From an endosymbiont of Lamellibrachia barhami (GTDB lineage: Bacteria; Pseudomonadota; Gammaproteobacteria; Chromatiales; Chromatiaceae): DNA of 40,741 bases. Under the pieces are notes generated by a model. The model searched no databases, had not been told where the DNA came from, and saw only the letters and a list, made by a program, of their open reading frames with translations. Below, piece by piece: positions 13,512-27,118 of the stretch. A program made the translations under genes and the position numbers. Numbering within the stretch: position 1 is the first letter of the stretch; each line of letters opens with the position of its first letter. The DNA lies in the NCBI RefSeq assembly GCF_011947365.2, contig NZ_JAAVSH020000001.1, forward strand, positions 3,056,455-3,097,195. The letters are read 5' to 3'.

Positions 13512-14234
13512 TCAGGGGGCCACTTTACTTTGCGAAAACGTTGTGTTTTCGAGTATGACCTTGTACGTGTAGCCCGAACCGAGATCGATGTCACTCCTTA
13601 GCACACCGCTGGCAATTACCAGGTCGCCGGGTGAAACCAGCTCGGAAGAGGTTGCAATCAACTTGTTGTTCGGCTTTGTGCCGGTACCATCCTGCAGAGT
13701 AATCCAGTTCTTGCCCATGATGTTCTGACTAACCTTAATGACTCTTGCGCGCATGCTTACTGACTGGTCTTTCAGCTGGGCCGATCCTTCAAGGATGTCG
13801 GCAATCGTCTTGCCGGCAGCCAGCGGGGAGATCTCTCCTAGTGCGGGCGCCTGAACTGAAACAGATTTTTGAAACACCCTATTTTCAGTTCCATGGCCTT
13901 CCGCTTCTATCGCTGCACGGTGAACGCTGTTCATATCCTGGCCCACTCGGTGGGCCGCCTGCACAAAGAAGATCGACTCAAACGTCCTGTCCAGGGTTCT
14001 GCTGTGAAAATCCCTCATCTCCATGCCGCCGCTGAATTCGACCTTGTCTCCCGCAGCCACCGGCAAGCGGCTGGTTGCAATCCATATACCCAGTTCTTCG
14101 AGCCGCAAGTAGGTATAGTTCCCCACGTCGATGACTTCGGCCACGGTACCTGTTCCTGAGCCCGCTTGTTCCGCTGCGGTTGTTGTTGAAATCAGCAGGA
14201 CGCAAATCATTAATATCGATATTATGAACTTCAT
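13512..14234 (-). CDS. Periplasmic protein with two NrfJ-like / OB-fold domains
   Basis: From the ATG at 14234 (AGAGG upstream) the protein starts with a signal peptide (MKFIISILMICVLLISTTTA). Two small beta-rich domains follow. The first reads GTVAEVIDVGNYTYLRLEELGIWIA, the pattern of NrfJ-like and BOF-type OB folds. The second, after KTIADILEGSAQLKDQSVSMRARV, repeats the fold with ITLQDGTGT. NrfJ-like proteins are found beside multiheme cytochrome genes. This one is divergent from the cytochrome cluster and shares its upstream region, which fits an accessory role there, but no function is known. An upstream in-frame ATG at 14324 lacks a ribosome site. Confidence 0.7.
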   Translation of the reverse strand: MKFIISILMICVLLISTTTAAEQAGSGTGTVAEVIDVGNYTYLRLEELGIWIATSRLPVAAGDKVEFSGGMEMRDFHSRTLDRTFESIFFVQAAHRVGQDMNSVHRAAIEAEGHGTENRVFQKSVSVQAPALGEISPLAAGKTIADILEGSAQLKDQSVSMRARVIKVSQNIMGKNWITLQDGTGTKPNNKLIATSSELVSPGDLVIASGVLRSDIDLGSGYTYKVILENTTFSQSKVAP

Positions 14235-14528
14235 GGGAAAGCCTCTTGGTTCCTGCTTATAAGTAAAGTCGCAGCATGGCGGCTTAATAAATTTGGACGT
14301 GGTCTTTTCTCGACTAATAAGCAACTCGTCGCACCAGCCGACAGGGATTCAACCCGCATCCAGAAATACTTATTCTTCTCACTAAAATATACCATCTGCC
14401 GGCAAGCAGGATAAACCTTGACCTAGGCACCGGATACATACGTGCTAGGCTAACATACATTTAAGCGTACTTGACAAGCATTCCAAATACATAAGTACTG
14501 GATGATGCCCTACCTTGGGAGTAGAAAA

Positions 14529-15650
14529 GTGAATCTTGAGTTGACCAAACGTTCTTTGAAACCCATGTTGCAGTCTGGTTTTCTATTGGCAGCTGTTGTT
14601 AGTGGCATGCTGCTGGTTTCCGGGTGTGCCACCCACACGCCAACCCCGGAAGCCAAGGTAATATCACCTGAGCAATTTGTGTGGCCCGCGCCCCCGCAAC
14701 AACCCCGCGTCCGCTATCTCGGCAGCCTGAAATCCCTCGAAGACGTGGCCGGCAAGCCACAGCAAAACCTGCGTGACAGGCTGCTCGGTAAAAAGGAGGG
14801 GGAGCACCGCAGCCTGATTAAACCTTACGGTGTACACAGTGATTCGAAAGGACGGGTCTTCGTCGCCGACTCCGGCATCGCTGGCCTGGTGGTGTTTGAC
14901 ATCGAAAAGAAGGACCTCTCCTTCTGGGGTGTCAGTGGACCGGGAGCGCCGCGCAAACCGTTAGGTGTGACATCCGACGCACAGGGCAATGTCTACGTCA
15001 GTGATGTCATTGACCATCGAGTGGTGGTTTTCGACAACGAAGGCAACTACCTCAATGCACTGGGTGGGCAAGATATCCTGATTACACCGGTAGGCATGGT
15101 TTTCAATGACAGAACCCAGCGCCTTTACGTGGTGGACTCCAAGAAACATCAGATCATCGTATTCGACCGTGAAGGAAATGTGGATTTCACCATCGGCCAG
15201 CACGGTAGCGAAACCGGCAACTTAAACTCCCCGACCAACATCGCTATAGATGAGGAGGGCCGCCTTTATGTAGCCGACACCTTGAACTTTCGCGTTCAAA
15301 TATTTGCAGCGGACGGCACCCATATCAGCACTTTTGGCAATATTGGCGACGGTAGAGGTGATTTTAGCCGCCTGAAAGGGATAGGGGTGGACAAAGAAGG
15401 ACACATTTACGCGGTCGATGCCGCATTTAATAATTTTCAGGTCTTTAGCCAGGAGGGGCAGCTGCTGCTGGTCGTTGGCCAGGCCGGTACCGGCCCGGGA
15501 GGGTTTTACTTACCGGCGGGCGCCCACGTGGATAAGAACAACCGGATATTTATCGCCGATCAGTTTAACACGCGGATACAGATGTTCGAATACCTCGGAG
15601 AATCAGACACACCCCCACCACCACTATCCACAACTTCCAATGATCCATAA
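14529..15650 (+). CDS. NHL-repeat (six-bladed propeller) lipoprotein 1
   Basis: A lipoprotein with a beta-propeller, first gene of the electron-transfer cluster. The lipobox LVSGC follows a hydrophobic signal. The segment QFVWPAPPQQPRVRYLGSL comes next, then six NHL repeats of the type GRLYVADTLNFRVQIF, enough for a closed propeller. No heme motif is present. GTG at 14529 is chosen because GGGAG sits seven bases before it; ATG at 14502 is in frame but has no ribosome site. NHL propeller proteins accompany OmcE/OmcS-type cytochrome clusters in metal-reducing bacteria; a role in assembly or docking is inferred. A related gene is at 21904, and a decayed copy of its 3' half at 17436-17955. Confidence 0.88.
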   Translation: MNLELTKRSLKPMLQSGFLLAAVVSGMLLVSGCATHTPTPEAKVISPEQFVWPAPPQQPRVRYLGSLKSLEDVAGKPQQNLRDRLLGKKEGEHRSLIKPYGVHSDSKGRVFVADSGIAGLVVFDIEKKDLSFWGVSGPGAPRKPLGVTSDAQGNVYVSDVIDHRVVVFDNEGNYLNALGGQDILITPVGMVFNDRTQRLYVVDSKKHQIIVFDREGNVDFTIGQHGSETGNLNSPTNIAIDEEGRLYVADTLNFRVQIFAADGTHISTFGNIGDGRGDFSRLKGIGVDKEGHIYAVDAAFNNFQVFSQEGQLLLVVGQAGTGPGGFYLPAGAHVDKNNRIFIADQFNTRIQMFEYLGESDTPPPPLSTTSNDP

Positions 15651-15873
15651 AAGATAGGGTAATACCCCCATTGATGATTGTCATTGACTATCATAATATT
15701 CCCATTGCGCCGGTGGGACTATATTCCCAATCAATACATAACAAAAGACGCTACCGGACGCCGTCAGAAAATGCATTTGAAGACAGCAACAGTCACAAAG
15801 CAGCTAGAAGTAAGCTTGCAGTTAATAAAAAAGCATAGGTGCTCCATATTCAACCGTATAGGGAGTTTTTACC

Positions 15874-16482
15874 ATGAAAAAGAAGTTGGCGGCCTTAGGT
15901 TTTCTACTTGTATCCTTAGTCCTGTCTGGCATGGCAGTTGCGGCCAGCATTGTCGGCTCAAGTCATGACTTGACTGGTACAGGTGTTTCAGCATCCGTTT
16001 GTGTGTTCTGCCACACGCCTCACAACGCAAGCACTACGAATTTAACAACTCCGTTGTGGAACCGTGTTGACACGACCTCAACTTTCCAAATGTACGACAG
16101 CCCCACGTTCGATATGAGTCCTGGCGCGGGTTCCCAGCCGGCTGGCGTCTCACTGGCATGTCTAAGCTGTCATGATGGAAGCCTTTCCGTGGATCAATTA
16201 CTCAATCAACCTGCCGATTTTGTCGCCAACGCAGACACTGTGGGCGGACTCGGAACCGACCTGCGAAATGATCATCCGATCTCCTTTGGTTACAACGTTG
16301 GTTTGGATCCGGCTTTCGAGCCTGCTGGTACCGTAGTTGCTTCCGGGCTGCCATTGTTTGGCACTGCCGGGGATCAGGTCGAATGCGGAACCTGCCACAA
16401 TGTACATGATCCGGCAATCGGAAAATTCCTGCGCATAAGCAATACAGCCAGCGCTATGTGCGTGGCCTGCCACATTAAGTAA
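15874..16482 (+). CDS. OmcE-like tetraheme c-type cytochrome, copy 1
   Basis: An exported 202-residue cytochrome with a signal peptide ending near AVAAS. Four heme sites are seen: CVFCH (43-47), CLSCH (96-100), CGTCH (171-175) and CVACH (196-200). The only other histidines are H31, H50, H134 and H178, exactly enough to give every heme two His ligands. The order CxxCHTPHN, CLSCHDG, NDHPISF, CHNVHDP, then a C-terminal CxxCH is that of Geobacter OmcE-type filament cytochromes and of doubled-CXXCH proteins. ATG at 15894-15896 in the reading MKKKLAALG is preceded by agggagttttacc; the frame listed opens slightly earlier at the same ATG. It lies 220 bp after the NHL gene, with a 5' region conserved in copy 2. 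Confidence 0.9.
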   Translation: MKKKLAALGFLLVSLVLSGMAVAASIVGSSHDLTGTGVSASVCVFCHTPHNASTTNLTTPLWNRVDTTSTFQMYDSPTFDMSPGAGSQPAGVSLACLSCHDGSLSVDQLLNQPADFVANADTVGGLGTDLRNDHPISFGYNVGLDPAFEPAGTVVASGLPLFGTAGDQVECGTCHNVHDPAIGKFLRISNTASAMCVACHIK

Positions 16483-16504
16483 CGGCTCAAGCAAACCGAG
16501 CCGT
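16482..16504 (+). promoter_or_regulatory. Hairpin over the start of triheme lipoprotein copy 1
   Basis: ACGGCTC (16482-16488) pairs perfectly with GAGCCGT (16498-16504) over a nine-base loop, directly abutting the ATG at 16505 and just after the tetraheme stop. The matching site in copy 2 (about 18793-18815) has lost the complementarity. It could lower translation of the first triheme copy or mark an mRNA end. Confidence 0.45.
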
Positions 16505-17179
16505 ATGCATACTAAAGCGGATAAGTTGAAATATGGAGCCAGGGCAATGCAAATTGCCCTGGTTCTTACTAGTGTGCTGATCATATCCTCTTGCAGCACT
16601 CAAACCCGGCAGTTATTTTTTGATATCCAGCCACCCACGCCCGAGGAGCTGGCTGAGAAAAAGCAAAAAGAGGAAGCTGCACTGGCTGCATTGCAAGCCA
16701 GGAATAAACAGAAAAACCAGCTGACTGGCACTGCGGGCATGTCATTCGGTCGATCTGATGATAATCGGTCGCGACCGGAAATCGAGTCAGTCATGGATTG
16801 GAAAAAGGCACAGGAGATGCTGCCAAAGGATTACAAAAAGGGCATCGACTGGTCCGCCGCGCTGGAACAGGGTCTGATACGACCGCGCATCGGGGACGAT
16901 CCCCGGGCAGAGTGGGCCTCCGCTTTCCAGTGGGACTTTATCATCAAGGCTAAAAAGCCTAAGAACCATGCATATTTCCCGCACTCTGCCCATACCGAGT
17001 GGCTGGGTTGCAAGAATTGTCACAACACCTCTCTCTATCCCTATAAAAGAAATCCAGCCACGATGAAGGAGATGAAGAAAGGTGCATCCTGCGGTGCCTG
17101 TCATGGCAAGAAGAAAGTTGCTTTCTCCCTGAAGGCGTGCAAGCGCTGCCATCTGAATAGGAAGAAGAAGAAAAAGTAA
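16505..17179 (+). CDS. Triheme c-type cytochrome lipoprotein, copy 1
   Basis: A 224-residue lipoprotein; lipobox IISSC with C30 as the lipidated residue. A charged helical linker (about 45-75) precedes a C-terminal triheme domain: CKNCH (169-173), CGACH (196-200) and CKRCH (212-216). Three further histidines (H155, H160, H163, in HAYFPHSAH) can be distal ligands, giving bis-His coordination to all three hemes. The tail is poly-lysine. An alternative ATG at 16547 has GGAG upstream but would remove the positive n-region of the signal. The protein would sit in the membrane-anchored part of the conduit. It is nearly identical to copy 2 at 18816. Confidence 0.88.
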   Translation: MHTKADKLKYGARAMQIALVLTSVLIISSCSTQTRQLFFDIQPPTPEELAEKKQKEEAALAALQARNKQKNQLTGTAGMSFGRSDDNRSRPEIESVMDWKKAQEMLPKDYKKGIDWSAALEQGLIRPRIGDDPRAEWASAFQWDFIIKAKKPKNHAYFPHSAHTEWLGCKNCHNTSLYPYKRNPATMKEMKKGASCGACHGKKKVAFSLKACKRCHLNRKKKKK

Positions 17180-17233
17180 TGCTTTTGCCGTTTGTTCTGG
17201 CGGCATGCCGATACATGCTGTAAAGGTAGGTGT

Positions 17234-17435
17234 ATGCGTACAAATAGTCTCATTTCAGTCTATCTATTCCTGTTGGCAATCAGCTCAACGTTGGGAGCCG
17301 CTCCCGGGGATATCCAATATGAACGCGAGGGGGGGGGATGCCGAAGAACTGAAGACATTTCCACCATCCATCTTTCCGCACTGGATACACCGGATCAATT
17401 ACCGTTGTGACGCATGCCATAACAAGCTGTTCGAG
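17234..17435 (+). pseudogene. c7-type triheme cytochrome, truncated and frameshifted copy
   Basis: This matches the intact gene at 19545 up to the codon for KLFE, then runs at 17435/17436 into a displaced piece of the NHL gene, losing two of the three heme sites. In addition a G tract just after position 17328 has nine Gs where the intact copy has eight, shifting the frame before the first heme. It is therefore doubly broken. Confidence 0.9.
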
Positions 17436-17955
17436 TTACGTGGTGGACTCCAAGAAACATCAGATCATCGTATTCGACCGTGAATGGTGGATTTCACCAT
17501 CGGCCACACGGTAGCGAAACCGGCAACTTAAACTCCCCGACCAACATCGCTATAGATGAGGAGGGCCGCCTTTTATGTAGCCGGGACACACCTTGAACTT
17601 TCGCGTTCAAATTATTTGCAGCGGACGCAGCCCATATCAGCACTTTTGGCAATATTGGCGACGGTAGAGGTGGATTTTAGCCGCCTGAAAGGATAGGAGG
17701 GATAAAGAAGGACATTTACGCGGTCGATGCCGCATTTAATACCCTTCAGGTCTTTAGCCAGGAGGCAGCGTTGCTGGTCGTTGGCCATGCCGGTACCGGC
17801 CCGGGATATTTTATTTACCGGCGGGCGCCCACGTGGATAAGAACAACCGGATATTTATCGCCGATCAGTTTAACACGCGGATACAGATGTTCGAATACCT
17901 CGGAGAATCAGACACACCCCCACCCCACCACCACACTATCCACAACTTCCAATGA
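17436..17955 (+). pseudogene. Decayed 3' half of the NHL lipoprotein gene
   Basis: The stretch aligns with 15125-15650 and reaches the same stop and downstream sequence, but it carries many small insertions and deletions (for example at about 17483, 17505, 17574, 17586, 17612, 17689-17705 and 17766). No single frame survives. It is missing its start because the duplication began inside the gene. It keeps high base identity between the indels. Confidence 0.9.
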
Positions 17956-18184
17956 TCCATAAAAGATAGGGTAATACCCCCATTGATGATTGTCATTGAC
18001 TATCATAATATTCCCATTGCGCCGGTGGGACTATATTCCCAATCAACACATAATTAAAGACGCAACCGGACGCCGTCAGAAAACGCATTAAAAATAGCAA
18101 CAGTCACAAAGCAGCTAGAAGTAAGCTTGCAGTTAATAAAAAAGCATAGGTGCTCCATATTCAATCGTATAGGGAGTTTTTACC

Positions 18185-18793
18185 ATGAAAAAGAAGTTGG
18201 CGGCTTTAGGTTTTCTACTTGTCTCCTTAATCCTGTCAGGCATGGCAGTTGGGGCCAGCATTGTCGGCTCAAGCCATGACTTGACGGGTACAGGTGTTTC
18301 AGCCTCGGTTTGCGTGTTCTGCCACACGCCTCACAACGCAAGTACTACGAATTTAACAACTCCATTGTGGAACCGTGTTGACACGACATCAACTTTCCAA
18401 ATGTACGACAGCCCCACGTTCGATATGAGTCCTGGCGGGGGCGCCCAGCCGGCTGGCGTCTCACTGGCATGTCTAAGCTGTCATGATGGAAGCCTCTCCG
18501 TAGATCAATTACTCAATCAACCTGCCGATTTTGTCGCCAACGCAGACACTGTGGGCGGACTCGGTACCGACCTGAGAAATGATCATCCGATCTCCTTTGG
18601 TTACAACGTTGGTTTGGATCCGGATTTCGAGCCTGCTGGTACCGTAGTTGCTGCCGGACTGCCATTGTTTGGCGCTGCTGGGGATCAGGTCGAATGCGGA
18701 ACCTGCCACAATGTACATGATCCGGCAATCAGTAAATTCCTGCGCATAAGCAATACAGCCAGTGCTATGTGCACGGCCTGCCACATTAAGTAA
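18185..18793 (+). CDS. OmcE-like tetraheme c-type cytochrome, copy 2
   Basis: A 202-residue paralogue of the gene at 15874 with roughly ten substitutions and no indel. All four heme motifs (the last is now CTACH) and all four extra histidines are retained. Changes fall mostly in the signal peptide and surface loops, for example PAFEP to PDFEP, ASGLPLFGTAG to AAGLPLFGAAG and AIGKF to AISKF. ATG at 18185 has the same agggagttttacc leader. The intact state of this gene next to a wrecked NHL copy of the same age argues that it is under selection. Confidence 0.9.
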   Translation: MKKKLAALGFLLVSLILSGMAVGASIVGSSHDLTGTGVSASVCVFCHTPHNASTTNLTTPLWNRVDTTSTFQMYDSPTFDMSPGGGAQPAGVSLACLSCHDGSLSVDQLLNQPADFVANADTVGGLGTDLRNDHPISFGYNVGLDPDFEPAGTVVAAGLPLFGAAGDQVECGTCHNVHDPAISKFLRISNTASAMCTACHIK

Positions 18794-18815
18794 CTGCTCA
18801 AGTTAATCTCACCGC

Positions 18816-19490
18816 ATGCATACTAGAGCGGATAAGTTGAAATATGGAACCAGGGCAATGCAAATTGCCCTGGTTCTTACTAGTGTGCTGATCATATCCT
18901 CTTGCAGCACTCAAACCCGGCAGTTGTTTTTTGATATCCAGCCACCCACGCCCGAAGAGCTGGCTGAGAAAAAGCAAAAAGAGGAAGCTGCACTGGCTGC
19001 ATCGCAGGCCAGGAATAAACAGAAAAACCAGCTTACAGGTACTGAGGGCATGTCTTTCGGTAGATCTGATGATAATCAGCCGCGACCGGAAATCGAGTCA
19101 GTCATGGATTGGAAAAAGGCACAGGAGATGCTGCCAAAGGATTACAAGAAGGGCATCGACTGGTCCGCCGCACTGGAACAGAGTCTGATACGGCCGCGCA
19201 TCGGGGACGATCCACGGGCAGAGTGGGCCTCCGCTTTCCAGTGGGACTTTATCATCAAGGCTAAAAAACCTAAGAACCATGCATATTTCCCGCACTCGGC
19301 CCATACCGAGTGGCTGGGTTGCAGAAACTGTCACAACACCTCTCTCTATCCCTATAAACGAAACCCAGCCACGATGAAGGAGATGAAGAAAGGTGCATCC
19401 TGCGGTGCCTGTCATGGCAAGAAGAAAGTTGCTTTCTCCCTGAAGGCGTGCAAGCGCTGTCATCTGAACAGGAAGAAGAAGAAAAAGTAA
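18816..19490 (+). CDS. Triheme c-type cytochrome lipoprotein, copy 2
   Basis: A 224-residue near-identical paralogue of the gene at 16505, with the same lipobox and the three heme motifs CRNCH, CGACH and CKRCH and all three candidate distal histidines. Substitutions are few and mild (for instance ALQARN to ASQARN, CKN to CRN). The upstream hairpin seen before copy 1 is lost here. A 54-bp gap leads to the intact c7 gene. Confidence 0.88.
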   Translation: MHTRADKLKYGTRAMQIALVLTSVLIISSCSTQTRQLFFDIQPPTPEELAEKKQKEEAALAASQARNKQKNQLTGTEGMSFGRSDDNQPRPEIESVMDWKKAQEMLPKDYKKGIDWSAALEQSLIRPRIGDDPRAEWASAFQWDFIIKAKKPKNHAYFPHSAHTEWLGCRNCHNTSLYPYKRNPATMKEMKKGASCGACHGKKKVAFSLKACKRCHLNRKKKKK

Positions 19491-19544
19491 TGCTTTTGCC
19501 GTTTGTTCTGGCGGCATGCCGATACATGCTGTAAAGGTAGATGT

Positions 19545-19883
19545 ATGCGTACAAATAATCTCATTTCAGTCTATCTATTCCTGCTGGCAATCAGCTCAAC
19601 GTTGGGAGCCGCTCCCGGGGATATCCAATATGAACGCAAGGGGGGGGATGCCGAAGAACTGAAGACATTTCCACCATCCATCTTTCCGCACTGGATACAC
19701 CGGATCAATTACCGTTGTGACGCATGCCATAACAAGCTGTTCGAGATGAAAACCGGCACCACCCCCATCAACAAGGACCTGATGAAGGAAGGAAAAGTTT
19801 GTGCCGTCTGCCATAACGGCAAACAGGCCTTTGACGATGGTTTCGAGAACTGTAACCGCTGTCATATCAATGACGAGAAATGA
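19545..19883 (+). CDS. c(7)-type triheme cytochrome
   Basis: An exported 112-residue cytochrome. After the signal peptide (about 1-23) it reads GDIQYERKGGDAEEL, then FPHWIHRINYRCDACH, the signature of the c(7)-type triheme domain associated with nanowire-type clusters. Hemes are at 58-62, 86-90 and 103-107. H49 and H52 are the only extra histidines, so one heme must take another ligand or one from a partner. The ATG at 19545 has AAGGTAG upstream. An eight-G run encodes part of KGG and differs by one G from the broken copy at 17234. The stop overlaps the start of the barrel gene by four bases (ATGA). Confidence 0.88.
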   Translation: MRTNNLISVYLFLLAISSTLGAAPGDIQYERKGGDAEELKTFPPSIFPHWIHRINYRCDACHNKLFEMKTGTTPINKDLMKEGKVCAVCHNGKQAFDDGFENCNRCHINDEK

Positions 19884-21907
19884 TCAACATGGTTCTGGGC
19901 GAGACCATGCCAAGAATCATGAAGTATCCGGGTTATTCCTGGTTAATCTTCACGATGATCGCGCTGTGGACCACAAATAGCTCGGCCCTGTCTTGGGAAG
20001 AACTGACCTTCTATCCCACTAAATTCGAGGCACTTGTCGATTTCGACGGCACCAACAGACGCAAAAGCGGCAGTTCACGGGAGATCGAGTGGAGAGCCGG
20101 TGTGCGTATCGAACAGAATGGCTATGTTCTGGATCCCGGGATCGCATTGTTTCATCTGGACATTGAACCCATGTACACATGGGGCGATTTCGAATCCAGC
20201 GACACGAGTCGAGACAGCAGTGGTGAACTCCTCAATTACCTACTCCAGCTGAATCTGTTCCGAGAGACGCCGGGGCCGGTTGGCTTCGACTTGTCCGCAC
20301 AACGGAGCACGAATTTCAACACAGGTTCCCTGGGTAGCCGAATCGATAATGTGATCGACACCAAGCGCGCGACTGTTAACTGGAAAAACCTTGCCTTCCC
20401 CACAAATCTCACTTACGAGGAGAGGTCACTCGAAGAGGAATTTCGATCCAGTCTGAGCAGTGCCGTATCTGAGCGTGATGAAACACTGAAGAGATGGATC
20501 ATCAAAGGGCGAAGCAGCAAGCTGGATTTACGTCTGGAGCACAAGTCCCTGGACGACCGAACCAACCGTGATCAAGACTACGACATCGATGAAGGTAACA
20601 TCTCCCACCACCTGCCTTGGGGAAACAACAGTCACCTTCGATCACGTTTCGACTATTACGACCGCACCGGCTTTAACGCCAACAAACGCCTGACATTTGA
20701 TGAGTTCGCGCGTATACAGCATACGCCGAATCTGTATAGCCGCACTTCCTATCATTATCATTCAATCAAGCAGAACATAAAAAATGTAGAACACCGCGGC
20801 ATCTTCGAGTTGAATCATCAGCTATATAAAAATCTGAATACGAAGGCCCATACAAACATAACTTCCCGCAACTCAGACAACATAGACGAAGACAAATGGC
20901 TAATCGGACTGGATGGTAAATACAATAAGCAGGATCTGTTCGGTGTCAGTGTCACGGCAGGCCTGGGAGGCTCCTACCAGGAGACCGACCGGGTTTCCAA
21001 TCAGGGAGTGGTGGAGGTCATCGATGAGAGCCACGTTGTACCCCTGACTGGCTCGGTAATCCTTAACCAGCGCTTCATTCTGACAAGCACCATCATTGTT
21101 ACCGACGAAACCGGCACACTGGTATACACGGAGGGTTCCGATTACACGGTATTCCCTCTTGCAGGGGACCTGACCCAGCTGCAGGCCATTCCCGGCGGAC
21201 GAATCGACACCGGCGACACCCTCCTGGTGAGTTACCAGGCGCAGCCGCTACCATCACAGATGTTTTCCACTATCCGCACCAACTACAACCTGGGCATCGA
21301 CCTGGGCTGGATGCGCTTTTCCCACTCCGACAACATATCGGATGACAAACTCATGTCCGGTGCCGGTGAGAGCTTCCTCAACGATACCCGCAACACCATT
21401 ACCGACATCGAATTTCGTGCGGAACTGGCATCCATCGACACCCTCGTGGGGGCCGCGCGACGCTTCACACTGGCCGGTGGATTCGAATCCACGACTTACA
21501 CCTCTCGCCAAGTGCTATCCTGGACGACATCCAGTAACACAAGTTCCAGGGGGATTCAGTGGAACCTGAACGCCACTCAGTCTTTCACCGAGCAGGAATC
21601 TCTGGATACCGACCTGTACCGCATAGAGCTATCGGCCAATTGGCGACCCTATGCGAGACTGTCAATCCATCCCATACTGGGTGCCTGGAAGCGGTACGAC
21701 ACTGGGGATACCATAAACGGTGGCCGTAGGGATGACGAATTCATCACAGCCGGCGTCAGAGGCAGCTGGCGGTACCGGGAACTCGATCTAAGCTTCAACT
21801 ATCACCACGACCGCCGAACAACCTCGACCTATGCACAGCCAGCCGGCAGTACAACCGAGTCCATCGAGGACAGGCTGATGTTCACCCTGAGGCGAAGATT
21901 CAGATGA
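19880..21907 (+). CDS. Outer-membrane beta-barrel of the electron-transfer conduit (putative)
   Basis: A 675-residue secreted protein without any CxxCH. After the signal peptide (most likely from an internal ATG near MKYPGYSWLIFTMIALW) it alternates polar and hydrophobic residues, is rich in Tyr, Thr, Asn and Arg, and ends SIEDRLMFTLRRRFR, with Phe near the terminus. These are features of large barrels. Porin-cytochrome conduits of Geobacter and Shewanella need a heme-free barrel of about this size to let a cytochrome cross the outer membrane, and the position between cytochrome genes fits. Strand count was not computed. ATGA overlaps link it to the genes on both sides. The true start may be up to 14 codons downstream of 19880. 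Confidence 0.8.
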   Translation: MINMVLGETMPRIMKYPGYSWLIFTMIALWTTNSSALSWEELTFYPTKFEALVDFDGTNRRKSGSSREIEWRAGVRIEQNGYVLDPGIALFHLDIEPMYTWGDFESSDTSRDSSGELLNYLLQLNLFRETPGPVGFDLSAQRSTNFNTGSLGSRIDNVIDTKRATVNWKNLAFPTNLTYEERSLEEEFRSSLSSAVSERDETLKRWIIKGRSSKLDLRLEHKSLDDRTNRDQDYDIDEGNISHHLPWGNNSHLRSRFDYYDRTGFNANKRLTFDEFARIQHTPNLYSRTSYHYHSIKQNIKNVEHRGIFELNHQLYKNLNTKAHTNITSRNSDNIDEDKWLIGLDGKYNKQDLFGVSVTAGLGGSYQETDRVSNQGVVEVIDESHVVPLTGSVILNQRFILTSTIIVTDETGTLVYTEGSDYTVFPLAGDLTQLQAIPGGRIDTGDTLLVSYQAQPLPSQMFSTIRTNYNLGIDLGWMRFSHSDNISDDKLMSGAGESFLNDTRNTITDIEFRAELASIDTLVGAARRFTLAGGFESTTYTSRQVLSWTTSSNTSSRGIQWNLNATQSFTEQESLDTDLYRIELSANWRPYARLSIHPILGAWKRYDTGDTINGGRRDDEFITAGVRGSWRYRELDLSFNYHHDRRTTSTYAQPAGSTTESIEDRLMFTLRRRFR

Positions 21908-22911
21908 CCAGACGATGGAGTTTCCTGCTGGCGCTGTTACTTGGCGCCTGTGCGACAACCGGCCCGGAGACGCTTCCCAAACCCGGCGAGACACCACGCA
22001 TGGTCTGGCCAGCAGCACCGGAGCAGGCGCGAATCGAATTAGTTGCATCGTTCAGCAGCGCGGAAGATCTCGGTCTGCGCAAACCCTTCTTCCGCAGGAT
22101 ACTGGATTTCCTTGCCGGCAGCGATGATCGCCGCCTGTCCCGTCCCTACGCGGTCGCCGTCAATAGCGAAAAGGTCGCCGTTGCCGATCCTGATACGGCG
22201 ACAGTGCACCTGTTCGAGATACAGAAAAAAACCTATCAACAACTTGATCGTGCAGGAAAGCAGCTTTTCGCATCGCCTATCGGGGTGGCTCTCGGCGGTG
22301 ACAGGCTGTTCGTAGCCGATTCCAGGTTGAACAAGGTGTTTGTCCTGGACTCCAGCCTTGAGATATTAAAGGTTCTGGAAGATTTCCAGCGTCCGACCAG
22401 CCTTGCATTCGACCCGGTACGTCAGCGTCTCTACGTGACCGACACTCCGGCACACGAGGTGCAAGTCTTTGATCAAGATGGCGGACTCCTGTTCAAGATC
22501 GGCGAGCGCGGCGAACAAGATATGCAATTCAATTATCCCAGCCACTTGGCATTCGCCAATGACCGCTTGTTCGTCAACGACACGATGAATTTCCGTATCC
22601 AGGTTTTCGATCCCGATGGCCACCATCTGATGACCTTTGGAAAACATGGAGACGCATCCGGCTATTTCACACAATCAAAGGGCGTGGTGGCTGATTCCGA
22701 TGGTCATGTCTATATTGCCGACGCCCTGGCAAACCGGGTGCAGATCTTCGATCAGAACGGTTCATTCCTGCTGGAATTTGGCAATGCCGGTGACGCCCCC
22801 GGCGCTTTTCACATGCCGTCCGGGCTGGCAACATGGAATGATAAAATTTATGTGGCGGACTCCTATAACCAGCGGATCCAGGTTTTCCGATACCTGAAGG
22901 CGAGTGACTGA
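21904..22911 (+). CDS. NHL-repeat (six-bladed propeller) lipoprotein 2
   Basis: A 335-residue paralogue of the first NHL lipoprotein. It has a short signal with lipobox LLGAC, then the same PRMVWPAAPEQARIELVASF segment that precedes the propeller in the other copy, and six NHL repeats such as DRLFVNDTMNFRIQVF and GHVYIADALANRVQIF. No heme motif is present. The start overlaps the barrel stop by four bases, and the stop lies one base before the ATG of the 12-heme gene, so the three are translationally coupled. Two diverged propellers in one cluster suggest distinct docking partners; that is inference. Confidence 0.9.
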   Translation: MTRRWSFLLALLLGACATTGPETLPKPGETPRMVWPAAPEQARIELVASFSSAEDLGLRKPFFRRILDFLAGSDDRRLSRPYAVAVNSEKVAVADPDTATVHLFEIQKKTYQQLDRAGKQLFASPIGVALGGDRLFVADSRLNKVFVLDSSLEILKVLEDFQRPTSLAFDPVRQRLYVTDTPAHEVQVFDQDGGLLFKIGERGEQDMQFNYPSHLAFANDRLFVNDTMNFRIQVFDPDGHHLMTFGKHGDASGYFTQSKGVVADSDGHVYIADALANRVQIFDQNGSFLLEFGNAGDAPGAFHMPSGLATWNDKIYVADSYNQRIQVFRYLKASD

Positions 22912-22912
22912 T

Positions 22913-24709
22913 ATGCGAAGAGTATCTGTATTGTGTATGTGTCTTCTGATTGTCCCGGCTGCCACCGTGGGGGACGTGGCAACTACCGTGCATAACCTGT
23001 CGTCCTCGGGACCTGGGACAGGGGCGTTTAAGAGCCTGACTGAAGATCGGATCTGTATTTTCTGCCATACGCCCCACGCGGCCACGCCCGATACGCCTTT
23101 ATGGAACAGGCTCTCCACCGGAGGTTATACCCCTTATCAAAGCAGCACCACGGACGCAGCTGCAGGAAATATGAGTTCTTCTTCAGATTTATGCCTCTCC
23201 TGCCATGATGGCACCATAGCCTTGGGTGACCTGGTCAACCCTGGGACTGGGGTTACCAACGACCTGAGCACCACATTTCTGACCGGCCGGGCTCTCATTG
23301 GCTCCGACCTATCCAACGACCACCCGGTCGCAATCGTCTACGACCCAAACTTGCTGGCCACCGACCCGGATCTGCTCTCCCCCGCCGTCGTGGATCTTCC
23401 ACTAAGAAATGGTGAGCTGCACTGCTCTTCCTGCCACGATCCACATAAGAACATACATCCGCCTTTTCTTCACAAGTCGACGCTCAACGGTGAACTATGC
23501 ATCACCTGTCACATACCAACGGGGGCAACTTGGGATTGGACAACCAGCTCCCATGCCACATCCCTCGCCTCACCGCCCGTGGGGACCGATCCCTGGTCCG
23601 AACGCAAACCGGAATGGGTGGGGCAGAATGTACGTGAGAACGCCTGTATGAATTGCCACACGCCGCACAACGCGGCGACACCGGTGAGACTCATCAAAGA
23701 TCAGGAGGAACAAACCTGTTACCTTTGCCACGATGGCACCGTGGCACAGGATATTCTCGCAGAAGAACTGAAATTTTCTCACCATCCGGTAGAGATGACG
23801 CCCAATCTGGATCACGATTCCGTTCGAGCGGAGAACCCTCTTACCATGTCATTCCACGTCGAGTGCGAAGATTGCCACAACCCACATGGCAGTTATAGTT
23901 CTCCACCAATGATCTCCTTCAATCCCTCCAACCCAGCGGATACAAACCACACGACGGCGCCATTCGTCAACGGCAGCATGGTGGGTGTGACAGGCATTGA
24001 CAGCGGCGGAGCTGTGAAGTCCGAGGTGGATTACGAATACGAGGTTTGTTTCAAGTGCCACGGGGTACCCGGAAAGAGTGCATGCGATAACCAGCGCTGT
24101 TCGACTGCCACTGGTTACAGCATGACCCGTCAGGACGGTGTTTACAACTTACGCGACAAGGTTGATCCCGGCAATCCGGCACTGGTTTCTTACCACCCTA
24201 TCACAGCCAACAACCCTTTCAATAACGGCGAGGTCCCCAGTCTGCGCACTGACACTCCCCTGGATACGACCAGCAGCCTGATCTACTGCAGCGATTGCCA
24301 TAGCAGCAATGTTTCGCCCGCCGCTGGCGGAGTGGGGCCAGCAGGTTCCCATGGATCCACGTACGAAGGCATTCTGGCACTGCCTTATGATTTTGATCCA
24401 CAAACCGCCACTTCCGCAAACAACCTCTGCTACAAATGCCACAATACAGCCAGCTTAGAGGTCTCTTTCATACACCGCAAACACGTGGGCGCAAACACTA
24501 CCTGCATCAACTGCCACGACCCCCATGGCTCAGCGAAGTTTCCCCACCTGCTCAACTTCCTGACTTTTGCCAATGTCACAGGACCCATGGAGATCACCGG
24601 AACCGGCACCTTTACTGAGCCAACCTGGGTAGATAACGGGCAGTACAGTGGTACTTGCTATTTGGTCTGCCATGGAAAAAAACATGATGGATGGTCATAC
24701 CGCCCCTGA
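22913..24709 (+). CDS. Secreted dodecaheme c-type cytochrome
   Basis: A 598-residue exported protein with eleven CxxCH motifs (CIFCH, CLSCH, CSSCH, CITCH, CMNCH, CYLCH, CEDCH, CFKCH, CSDCH, CYKCH, CINCH) and one C-terminal CYLVCH (582-587), a spaced CxxxCH. Many are paired as in doubled-CXXCH cytochromes (CxxCHTPH, then CLSCHDG). The N-terminal 180 residues resemble the tetraheme protein at 15874, so this may have grown by domain fusion. It has no lipobox. It is the best candidate for the outer-surface component of the conduit. ATG at 22913 is used, directly after the NHL stop. Confidence 0.9.
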   Translation: MRRVSVLCMCLLIVPAATVGDVATTVHNLSSSGPGTGAFKSLTEDRICIFCHTPHAATPDTPLWNRLSTGGYTPYQSSTTDAAAGNMSSSSDLCLSCHDGTIALGDLVNPGTGVTNDLSTTFLTGRALIGSDLSNDHPVAIVYDPNLLATDPDLLSPAVVDLPLRNGELHCSSCHDPHKNIHPPFLHKSTLNGELCITCHIPTGATWDWTTSSHATSLASPPVGTDPWSERKPEWVGQNVRENACMNCHTPHNAATPVRLIKDQEEQTCYLCHDGTVAQDILAEELKFSHHPVEMTPNLDHDSVRAENPLTMSFHVECEDCHNPHGSYSSPPMISFNPSNPADTNHTTAPFVNGSMVGVTGIDSGGAVKSEVDYEYEVCFKCHGVPGKSACDNQRCSTATGYSMTRQDGVYNLRDKVDPGNPALVSYHPITANNPFNNGEVPSLRTDTPLDTTSSLIYCSDCHSSNVSPAAGGVGPAGSHGSTYEGILALPYDFDPQTATSANNLCYKCHNTASLEVSFIHRKHVGANTTCINCHDPHGSAKFPHLLNFLTFANVTGPMEITGTGTFTEPTWVDNGQYSGTCYLVCHGKKHDGWSYRP

Positions 24710-25107: not shown

Positions 25108-25437
25108 TCACTTCTTCGGGGGCGGAGCTGGCAGCGTAGCATAATAGGCGGCAACGTCAGCCATATCCTGTTCACTGAGATCCTCGGCTTCCATGTCTTC
25201 ATTTTCGTCGACCCGTTTACCCGACTTGTAGTCCATGAGCTCCTGGATATGTTCTTTTGGATCCATTCCGGCAATCGGCGGATTATCTTCGTCGCCCAGG
25301 CCATCGTCACCGTGGCAGTCCTCACAATCTTCTTCCGCCAGCTTCTTGCCCTTGGCAACATCACCGGCAGCCTGGACACTGGCAACCGCAAATATGGAGA
25401 CGAACATAGTGGCAACAATCAATTTCTTGATCAACAT
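25108..25437 (-). CDS. Small monoheme class I-type cytochrome c
   Basis: A periplasmic single-heme cytochrome of about 109 residues. From the ATG at 25437 (GAGGAGG nine bases upstream) it has a signal peptide ending SVQAAG, then GDVAKGKKLAEEDCEDCHGDDGLG with one CxxCH. The C-terminus is very acidic and ends in PAPPPKK. The length and the AAYYATL motif match small cytochrome c553/c4-like electron carriers. It is convergent with the conduit cluster and could feed it electrons from the periplasm, which is inference. Confidence 0.85.
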   Translation of the reverse strand: MLIKKLIVATMFVSIFAVASVQAAGDVAKGKKLAEEDCEDCHGDDGLGDEDNPPIAGMDPKEHIQELMDYKSGKRVDENEDMEAEDLSEQDMADVAAYYATLPAPPPKK

Positions 25438-25642
25438 ATTACACATCCTCCTCTAGGATTATAGTTAAGCTATCGTGTGAGCCCGTCTTTATTCTCAATT
25501 ATCTGCATTGGCCGCCGAGCATGTATTGTTAAATACGATAGCTTTATAAAAAATAGCTGCACTTATACTAGCAGTCAAGTATTCCAAAAAACCAATAAAC
25601 GCTATCACCTTATCTACAACCTAGTTTTGTAAACACTTAAAT

Positions 25643-25975: not shown

Positions 25976-27118
25976 ATGAAAAACCTCATCCAAATGTTGG
26001 TAGTGCTGCCTCTACTTCTAATAATAACTTCTGAAGTATCAGCCGATCTCCCTCCCGCCTTTGAGGGGAGAAAGTTATATGTTTCTCACTGTCAGCTATG
26101 TCATGCTGTCGATGGAAAGGGAGATGGCCCTCTCGCAAAATCGATGCAGATCGATGCGGAGGATCTAACTACCGTAGTACGCTCCGGAAGTGATAACAAC
26201 CTCATAAAGATCATCACGGGCAAGGGCCGACATGCATCCACCCACCGCATCAGCGCCAGCATGCCAAAGTGGGAAGAAGTATTCAGCGAGCATCAGATCA
26301 AAGCCCTGGTTGCATATCTACGCTTTCTCAGCAGCTCCAAACACGATCTTGTCGGAGATCCTGAGATTGGCCAACAGCTCTACCAGAAATATTGCTCAAT
26401 CTGTCACGGTGTTGAAGGTGATGGAAAGGGTATCATGACGGAACTCTTGCGAATCAAGCCGATTGATCACACCAATCCATACAAGACTGACAAGCTTGAC
26501 AATAAAGAACTCGCATCAAGCATTCTGGATGGCAGAGGAAAGTTTATGCCCGCTTTTCGCGGCGTTCTCAACCAAAACGAGGTCGACGGCTTAGTCAGTT
26601 ATATACGGCTGCTTTACCAAATATGGGGGAAATTAGAGGATGGAGGATTAGTTATTTTGATGAGACCTCCCGCTGTGAAAACAGGAGAAGAAGGCAGCGA
26701 CTCCCTGCTTCGTGACCCATCGTGCGAAAGCAAGGAGAATCTATCGGAAACAGGCAAGAAGAATGCAGTCAGAATCAGAGAGCAATTTAAATCCAGAGGC
26801 GTACCAATAGAGAGTGTATTGGCAAGCCCTGATTGCCTCGCCAAGGAAACTGCAAAAACTGCATTTGGTCAAGTTGAATCAGTGGAATTTCTATCTTTAA
26901 TGGATACGCTTTCCGAACAACAGGCAGATTCGTACACCGCACAATTAGAACGTCGAATAGGGTCATATTCAGGCAAGGGGAACCTTATTTTGGTAACACA
27001 CGAATTAAATATCAACGCCATATCTTTTCAAACTTTAGAGGAAGGATACTTTCTCGTACTGAATCCCATGGGCAAAAACGAGTTTGAAGAAATTGGAATA
27101 TATAGGTTGGATAATTAG
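25976..27118 (+). CDS. Diheme cytochrome c fused to a SixA-like histidine phosphatase domain lacking its catalytic His
   Basis: A 380-residue exported protein. The signal peptide covers about 1-23. Two class I cytochrome domains follow, with hemes at C39-H43 (CQLCH) and C140-H144 (CSICH), each followed by a MP-type Met candidate. Residues about 222-380 match SixA/phosphoglycerate mutase-type histidine phosphatases: LVILMRPP (RHG expected), ENLSETGKKNA, VLASPDCLAKETAKTAFG and LVTHELNIN. The catalytic RHG is replaced by R230-P231-P232, while the second His (H342 in VTHE) remains, so it should be unable to form phosphohistidine. ATG at 25976 follows a gggaga ribosome site. I know of no standard family with this exact layout. 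Confidence 0.85.
   Translation: MKNLIQMLVVLPLLLIITSEVSADLPPAFEGRKLYVSHCQLCHAVDGKGDGPLAKSMQIDAEDLTTVVRSGSDNNLIKIITGKGRHASTHRISASMPKWEEVFSEHQIKALVAYLRFLSSSKHDLVGDPEIGQQLYQKYCSICHGVEGDGKGIMTELLRIKPIDHTNPYKTDKLDNKELASSILDGRGKFMPAFRGVLNQNEVDGLVSYIRLLYQIWGKLEDGGLVILMRPPAVKTGEEGSDSLLRDPSCESKENLSETGKKNAVRIREQFKSRGVPIESVLASPDCLAKETAKTAFGQVESVEFLSLMDTLSEQQADSYTAQLERRIGSYSGKGNLILVTHELNINAISFQTLEEGYFLVLNPMGKNEFEEIGIYRLDN

Follow-up and report, generated by a model that had tools for sequence, protein, structure and literature searches.

A predicted trans-outer-membrane electron conduit of the Uet kind, with an OmcE-like module in its dodecaheme cytochrome, in a tubeworm endosymbiont

Introduction

Two described systems bear most closely on the gene cluster analyzed here. 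The first is OmcE of Geobacter sulfurreducens (PDB 7TFS), a tetraheme cytochrome that builds filaments with a helical rise of about 34 Å, in which a histidine from the adjoining subunit serves as ligand to one heme, as described in PMC12954529. The second is the undecaheme electron transfer (Uet) pathway of Ca. Tenderia electrophaga and Gallionella, which is described in PMC10734462 as comprising an extracellular tetraheme cytochrome (UetA), an isomerase (UetB), a barrel (UetC), triheme cytochromes (UetD, UetE and UetG), NHL proteins (UetH and UetI) and an undecaheme cytochrome (UetJ). We analyzed a 40,741-nucleotide stretch of the 4.17-Mb draft genome of an endosymbiont of Lamellibrachia barhami (contig NZ_JAAVSH020000001.1, positions 3,056,455 to 3,097,195; hereafter the window), where positions 14502–24709 of the + strand hold a cluster of multiheme cytochrome, barrel and NHL genes related to both.

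The original description of the Uet pathway is cited in PMC13264449 as mSphere 2022. In Tenderia, the triheme genes Tel_16515, Tel_16520 and Tel_16530 are reported in PMC5371394 to be among the highest-expressed genes on a cathode and to be apparently cotranscribed with the TPR gene Tel_16525, the undecaheme cytochrome being Tel_16545; we infer that Tel_16500–16545 correspond to uetA–J. Tubeworm endosymbionts have been suggested to exchange electrons with the outside on account of Cyc2 and PCC3, according to PMC5566968. How cytochrome filaments connect to outer-membrane conduits is an open question in the field.

Results

Composition of the cluster

The cluster opens with an NHL-propeller lipoprotein (NHL1, 14502–15650, lipobox LVSGC), followed by a tetraheme cytochrome (tetraheme A, 15874–16482, four CXXCH motifs and eight cysteines), predicted to be secreted and devoid of a lipobox, and by a triheme lipoprotein (lipoprotein A, 16505–17179) with the lipobox ISSC, a long linker and a C-terminal c7 domain. 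Past the repeated tetraheme and lipoprotein genes of a tandem duplication, described below, come a c7-type triheme cytochrome, a heme-free and cysteine-free protein of 675 residues (19880–21907), a second NHL-propeller lipoprotein (NHL2, 21904–22911, lipobox LLGAC) and a J-type cytochrome of 601 residues (22904–24709, GTG start), these four genes overlapping successively by 4, 4 and 8 nucleotides. The c7-type cytochrome (19545–19883) was read from the ATG at 19545 within the open reading frame (ORF) 19503–19883; it has a signal peptide recognizable by eye and is presumed periplasmic.

The J-type protein carries 11 CXXCH motifs and one CX3CH, which is invariant in ten aligned sequences and lies within the last 70 residues in all of 80 homologues; the protein was therefore counted as a dodecaheme cytochrome. 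In 2000 shuffles of each protein, the number of CXXCH averaged no more than 0.067 and never exceeded 2, so the heme motifs are beyond chance. NHL1 and NHL2 are 37% identical, and a lipobox-like motif was present in every family member checked (20/20 for NHL1 and 18/18 for NHL2, the window protein counted). Matches in a promoter and terminator scan were about as frequent as in shuffled sequence. The set of seven cytochrome, barrel and NHL genes on one strand listed by a first-pass annotation is thus borne out by ORFs, heme motifs, lipoboxes and overlaps, and all of its genes are present; it had passed over the tandem duplication and the decayed copies that go with it.

Comparison with Uet-type loci

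We compared the cluster with ten gammaproteobacterial loci (L153–L162, from genomes G230, G377, G284, G450, G337, G414, G545, G231, G405 and G266), chosen from class genomes with a match of about 280 and one of about 900 residues on one contig and called Uet-type by gene content and order. Their common order is a tetraheme gene, an ORF at the UetB position, a heme-free ORF of barrel size, two triheme genes, an ORF of 307–544 residues, a further triheme gene, NHL genes and a cytochrome with 11 CXXCH; L162 departs from this design in its second half. The J cytochromes are 834–953 residues long and have 11 CXXCH and no CX3CH. An ORF of 328–356 residues occupies the UetB position in seven of the ten loci, L158 having no room for it, and a PPIC-type isomerase is present in all three loci tested. 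At the UetF position, no TPR match was found in the four loci tested.

Of the window proteins tested, all but the barrel have BLASTP matches in each of the ten loci. Best matches to UetA-like proteins had E-values of 5e-33 (tetraheme A) and 1e-33 (tetraheme B, its duplicate). The dodecaheme, with 12 hemes, matched UetJ-like proteins across residues 17–514 (best E 5e-46). The c7 protein and the triheme lipoproteins match Uet-type trihemes, with only two triheme types in the window, and the NHL pair is present and matching, its genes not being adjacent here. For the barrel, BLASTP gave no match in the ten loci, and hhalign gave a probability of 84% (E 7.4e-6, calculated for a single comparison). 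Two components have no counterpart: no peptidyl-prolyl isomerase Pfam match was found among the cluster genes or the ten flanking genes scanned, and between lipoprotein B and the c7 ORF, which are spaced by about a dozen bases, there is no ORF of UetF size.

By homology of its cytochromes and propellers, the cluster is classed as a compact, rearranged Uet variant. The possibility that it is a nameless system was rejected on this likeness, and the first-pass remark that the combination could not be matched to a named system is not supported: most Uet components have counterparts here, although two are lacking.

Uet-type clusters look common in the class: 51 of 369 genomes have an OmcE-like match with E ≤1e-20, and many of these 51 carry matches of about 280 and about 900 residues on one contig. 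Elsewhere in the window's own genome, at about 3.567 Mb (L130:7316–10060), a gene for an 8-CXXCH cytochrome is followed by one for a cyclophilin-type isomerase, which recalls the Uet isomerase.

The tetraheme and the N-terminus of the dodecaheme belong with OmcE

When the tetraheme was searched against all PDB sequences with phmmer, OmcE (7tfs, E 1.7e-28) and 9yuq (E 1.5e-28) stood apart from the next match (E 0.091); a profile of its family gave 5.5e-48 and 6.1e-44 for the same two entries, and 0.0013 for the next. An alignment of 14 tetraheme relatives holds exactly eight invariant histidines, four within CXXCH and four distal, enough for bis-histidine ligation of four hemes. A signal peptide is recognizable by eye, and a lipobox-like motif occurs in none of 21 family members. 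These comparisons place the tetraheme in the OmcE filament family, and by virtue of this membership it likely forms filaments. The alternative of a soluble shuttle was rejected, as no such protein was among the good PDB matches; the grouping with OmcE agrees with what the first-pass annotation had expected. Of the two trihemes, the lipoprotein matches TIGR04257 above the cut-off, and its C-terminal domain has 3ov0 as its best PDB match (E 1.9e-31); the c7 protein matches Pfam Cytochrome_C7 (E 1.3e-15) and also has the c7-type 3ov0 as its best PDB match (E 9.8e-41).

The same annotation had overlooked that the dodecaheme itself contains an OmcE-like tetraheme module at its N-terminus (residues ~25–205, window positions 22976–23518). 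Residues 10–203 match 7tfs with E 5.6e-28, and the N-terminus is 32% identical to tetraheme A (E 1e-19). Each of the eight histidine positions is occupied in at least 80 of 81 dodecaheme modules and, among 68 free tetrahemes that include OmcE and 9yuq, in 64 or more, as well as in 10/10 UetA-like and 10/10 UetJ-like proteins. These alignments identify the first ~200 residues of both the dodecaheme and the UetJ-like proteins as an OmcE-like module that retains the full set of eight heme-ligand histidines. No earlier description of this module in J-type cytochromes was found in the literature searched, outside of which lie the original Uet and OmcE papers, and within that literature we regard it as new.

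For the module trees, we kept tetraheme-best hits with exactly four CXXCH and 185–330 residues (64 of 90), leaving out 26, of which 23 differed in heme number and 3 in length, and added the two window tetraheme copies, OmcE and 9yuq. In the latest tree, a single branch with a Shimodaira–Hasegawa-like approximate likelihood ratio test (SH-aLRT) value of 99 parts 91 fused modules from 78 free tetrahemes, including OmcE; 72 of its 165 inner branches are weak, and it has two long end branches. The split is also found in a tree without the Uet rows. The one-branch separation points to an old duplication that yielded a free and a fused protomer, often both in the same clusters: the two forms co-occur in clusters of ten phyla, and also in Uet-type clusters.

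The heme-free protein is predicted to form a large barrel

The 675-residue protein has no Pfam family match. Its structure model has a mean predicted local distance difference test (pLDDT) score of 78.6 and a predicted template modelling score (pTM) of 0.59, and counting from the listed elements gave 28 long strands. The first PDB match of the model in Foldseek is MtrB (6r2q_B, E 2.8e-10), which has 26 strands. A barrel had been proposed in the first-pass annotation, and the model supports it; the possibility that the protein is not a barrel was rejected on the same 28 strands. Between long strands 17 and 18, residues 374–460 (20999–21259) form a small beta domain, which would be extracellular in the model if the N-terminus of the barrel is periplasmic. 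It is possibly Ig-like, which is a guess. Residues 374–456 match NF052337, an NCBIfam phage tail tube model, below the cut-off, and short ORFs of two genomes (G075 and G038) weakly match the inserted domain.

Conservation and spread of the cluster

Among the matches listed, the closest to the dodecaheme are from endosymbionts of the tubeworms Escarpia spicata and Lamellibrachia anaximandri (94–95%), followed by Ca. Thiodiazotropha and another lucinid symbiont (66–73%). Of 15 same-family loci with a close barrel, 13 hold all seven genes in an unchanged order, and the other two end at contig edges; this order is found both in a tubeworm symbiont and in Ca. Thiodiazotropha. In one of the 13, from the sister genome G075 (L030:12141–14449), the barrel is spread over two reading frames, through sequencing error, an insertion or real loss. 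The sister genome G074 has NHL1 and the dodecaheme at contig ends, so its gap was probably made by the assembly, and loss of the cluster was rejected. This genome (L152:242–9892) and a further sister genome, G076 (L151), also carry another multiheme cluster, with 7-heme, 8-heme lipoprotein-like and 6-heme cytochromes, a NapH-like ferredoxin-cytochrome and an ORF of 1021 residues combining NHL repeats with 16 CXXCH; when 4.8 kb of its DNA served as query, no match was found in the window's own genome.

For a broader view we took 80 dodecaheme loci, the best 80 of at least 550 confirmed matches to two peptide patterns, and surveyed them with profiles built from close relatives. Phylum names were taken from the records, mostly metagenome bins, and 11 of the 80 loci have none. 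An NHL gene lies next upstream of the dodecaheme in 64 of the 69 loci that extend far enough to show one, or in 56 when a stricter rule is applied. A barrel was found in 49 of 60 loci with room, and in all 60 after profile iteration, a lenient figure because the profile was iterated on those same loci. Where 6.5 kb were available on both sides (40 loci), a 4-heme OmcE-like gene was found in 38, at least two NHL genes in 39 and, with the first profile, a barrel in 31; the three partners occur together in 29. Over all loci, the barrel, at least two NHL genes and the 4-heme gene accompany the dodecaheme in 48 of 80, many of the remainder being on short contigs. Twelve named phylum groups contain the dodecaheme, and in ten of these barrel, NHL and four-heme genes accompany it. 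At the place between NHL1 and the barrel that is taken by two trihemes in this lineage, a gene for 5 or more hemes is present in many loci.

In a class sample independent of the search patterns, 14 of 369 genomes have a dodecaheme match with E ≤1e-60. Eight of their loci were examined, the remainder being four others, the window genome and a Thiodiazotropha; seven of the eight have barrel, NHL and tetraheme genes, although one of these seven, which reaches a contig end, has only one NHL gene.

A tandem duplication within the cluster

Positions 15125–17435, from the 3' half of NHL1 to the 5' half of the c7 gene, are repeated as 17436–19745, with 94.8% identity across 2327 columns. This 2.3-kb duplication accounts for the presence of two tetraheme and two triheme-lipoprotein genes: tetraheme B (18185–18793) and lipoprotein B (18816–19490) differ from their A counterparts at 9 and 8 residues. 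The junction cuts both the first c7 gene, which is truncated (17205–17483) with one CXXCH remaining, and the second NHL copy, a frameshifted remnant that corresponds to the 3' half of NHL1 and is interrupted by stops in each of the three frames (17436–17962, the end being estimated from the repeat offset).

The ratio of nonsynonymous to synonymous substitution rates between the copies is 0.16 for the tetrahemes and 0.10 for the triheme lipoproteins. Gapped positions number 28 in the NHL stretch and none in the tetraheme-lipoprotein stretch, where substitutions fall mostly at third codon positions; decay of the second tetraheme was rejected on these grounds. The copies are placed differently in a tree of the NHL part and in one of the cytochrome part, and no such duplication was apparent in four congeneric genomes that are readable here. 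An assembly error is a residual possibility, the draft genome having 3.75% contamination.

Genes flanking the cluster

The upstream neighbour (13512–14324, − strand) has no Pfam or NCBIfam match and is conserved in 14 of 15 relatives' loci. Downstream lie a monoheme cytochrome c (25108–25446, − strand; 9 of 15 loci) and a two-heme cytochrome c (25976–27118, + strand; 14 of 15 loci), whose C-terminal domain weakly resembles SixA/histidine phosphatases, below the cut-off.

Discussion

We consider it probable that the genes of the cluster specify a Uet-like electron conduit across the outer membrane, in which the OmcE-like module of the dodecaheme would dock the tetraheme filament and the NHL proteins would act as scaffold; its function as a conduit is likely. 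In such an arrangement, periplasmic carriers would exchange electrons with the c7 and triheme-lipoprotein cytochromes, and the electrons would cross the outer membrane via the 28-strand barrel to the dodecaheme, whose N-terminal module would serve as docking and nucleating point for the filament, while the two NHL lipoproteins would scaffold the complex at the membrane. This topology, like polymerization, the role of the module as a socket and the direction of flow, is what we infer from the parts. Both directions are possible; in a sulfide-oxidizing symbiont, outward discharge of electrons, for instance when oxygen is short, is slightly favoured.

Several points weigh against this interpretation. 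It draws on sequence and predicted structure rather than on expression or biochemistry. The cluster encodes no periplasmic cytochrome of MtrA size, and bridging of the membrane by the six hemes of the small cytochromes is hard to explain; two Uet components are missing as well. The TM-score of the barrel model to MtrB is low (0.34), and other barrels come next at E 6e-8. The predicted model of the tetraheme (pLDDT 32) is unusable and gives no subunit interface. One class locus, L148, from a genome 72% complete, has a dodecaheme family member without any of the partners. Finally, the physiological need for cytochrome filaments is disputed, according to PMC11077965.

What the fused module does is a matter for a bolder proposal. 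A complete protomer followed by eight further hemes would be able to end a filament chain at one side. We tentatively put forward that J-type cytochromes, the dodecaheme and UetJ alike, may be dedicated nanowire sockets, in which an OmcE protomer, fused once and long ago to another multiheme module, would nucleate and cap the filament at the barrel, and that this machine may have spread over at least ten phyla and been kept by the chemosynthetic symbionts of tubeworms and lucinid clams; the odds are somewhat against so inclusive a scheme.

It is rather doubtful, though worth weighing, that the dodecaheme is not merely a socket on the outside but an MtrA-like wire within the barrel, with its C-terminal eight-heme part spanning the membrane. 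The dodecaheme matches TIGR03508 (DmsE-type decaheme) with E 5e-20 and, weakly, chain A of 6r2q (E 0.0028), but these scores lie under the curated cut-offs. Moreover, many of the 80 loci have a separate gene for at least five hemes adjoining the barrel, a better candidate for a plug, and here it is the c7 gene that overlaps that of the barrel. An internal wire would be compatible with an OmcE module that faces outward.

We find it unlikely that the conduit is real while the tetraheme is a non-polymerizing relay, soluble or surface-bound, and the dodecaheme module a building block of heme wires inherited by duplication. A filament structure from this lineage is lacking, as is a usable tetraheme model; the fused and free forms resemble the products of an old duplication, which needs no physical contact between them, and such modules also occur in proteins with other heme numbers, as in the 23 hits outside the tree. 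Filament formation is favoured over a relay by the eight heme-ligand histidines, the four distal ones included, which are kept in OmcE and nearly always in free and fused forms, and by the sharing of clusters by both forms in ten phyla and in Uet-type loci. Assembly or secretion, with the NHL proteins and the barrel exporting a cytochrome instead of conducting through the barrel, is quite improbable: a redox role of the NHL lipoproteins and the heme-free barrel is not demonstrated here, but the c7, barrel, NHL and 12-heme genes overlap, and porin-cytochrome logic is proposed for related or similar clusters in PMC10734462 and PMC5615132.

A protein with a filament protomer as its first domain, encoded beside a barrel and a free protomer in ten phyla, offers a testable candidate for the connection between filament and conduit. 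The cluster also places an OmcE-type cytochrome in animal symbionts; in the literature searched, extracellular electron transfer had been suggested for tubeworm symbionts only via Cyc2 and PCC3 (PMC5566968). In the literature searched there was no paper on Endoriftia and extracellular electron transfer, and among the papers listed none beyond PMC5566968 dealt with such transfer in tubeworm or lucinid symbionts, the one that names Thiodiazotropha being on magnetic fields; for these symbionts, both the OmcE-type cytochrome and the Uet-like conduit may be new, as far as that literature goes.

Comparison with known systems

PCC3 is a putative conduit of Riftia, Tevnia and Ridgeia endosymbionts that, as described in PMC5566968, consists of a porin, two very large multiheme cytochromes and an inner-membrane protein; none of this kind is in the window cluster. 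The locus Ga0056053_02426–02431 of Geoalkalibacter ferrihydriticus, compared here by its description only, shares an OmcE homologue, two NHL-repeat proteins and multiheme cytochromes with the cluster, but has MtoA-like cytochromes, and is described as being without mtoB (PMC12016550).

MtrCAB (PDB 6R2Q) resembles the cluster in its large heme-free barrel partnered by multiheme cytochromes, MtrB being the first structural match. The window barrel differs from it in its 28 predicted strands and inserted domain, and matches of the cluster proteins to TIGR03507 and TIGR03508, which would indicate MtrA or MtrC homologues, are all under the cut-off. OmcE is similar to the tetraheme over its whole length, with four CXXCH, four distal histidines and a signal peptide without lipobox; unlike OmcE, the tetraheme gene is duplicated and lies within a conduit cluster, and its polymerization would be expected from family membership.

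The Uet pathway shares the most with the cluster: both have a tetraheme, trihemes, two NHL proteins and a J cytochrome, and to the UetC barrel of the pathway corresponds a predicted barrel here. The window cluster differs from it in having no isomerase and no gene at the UetF position, two triheme types instead of three and another gene order, together with a barrel of 675 residues and a J protein of 601 residues that carries a twelfth heme motif, CX3CH.

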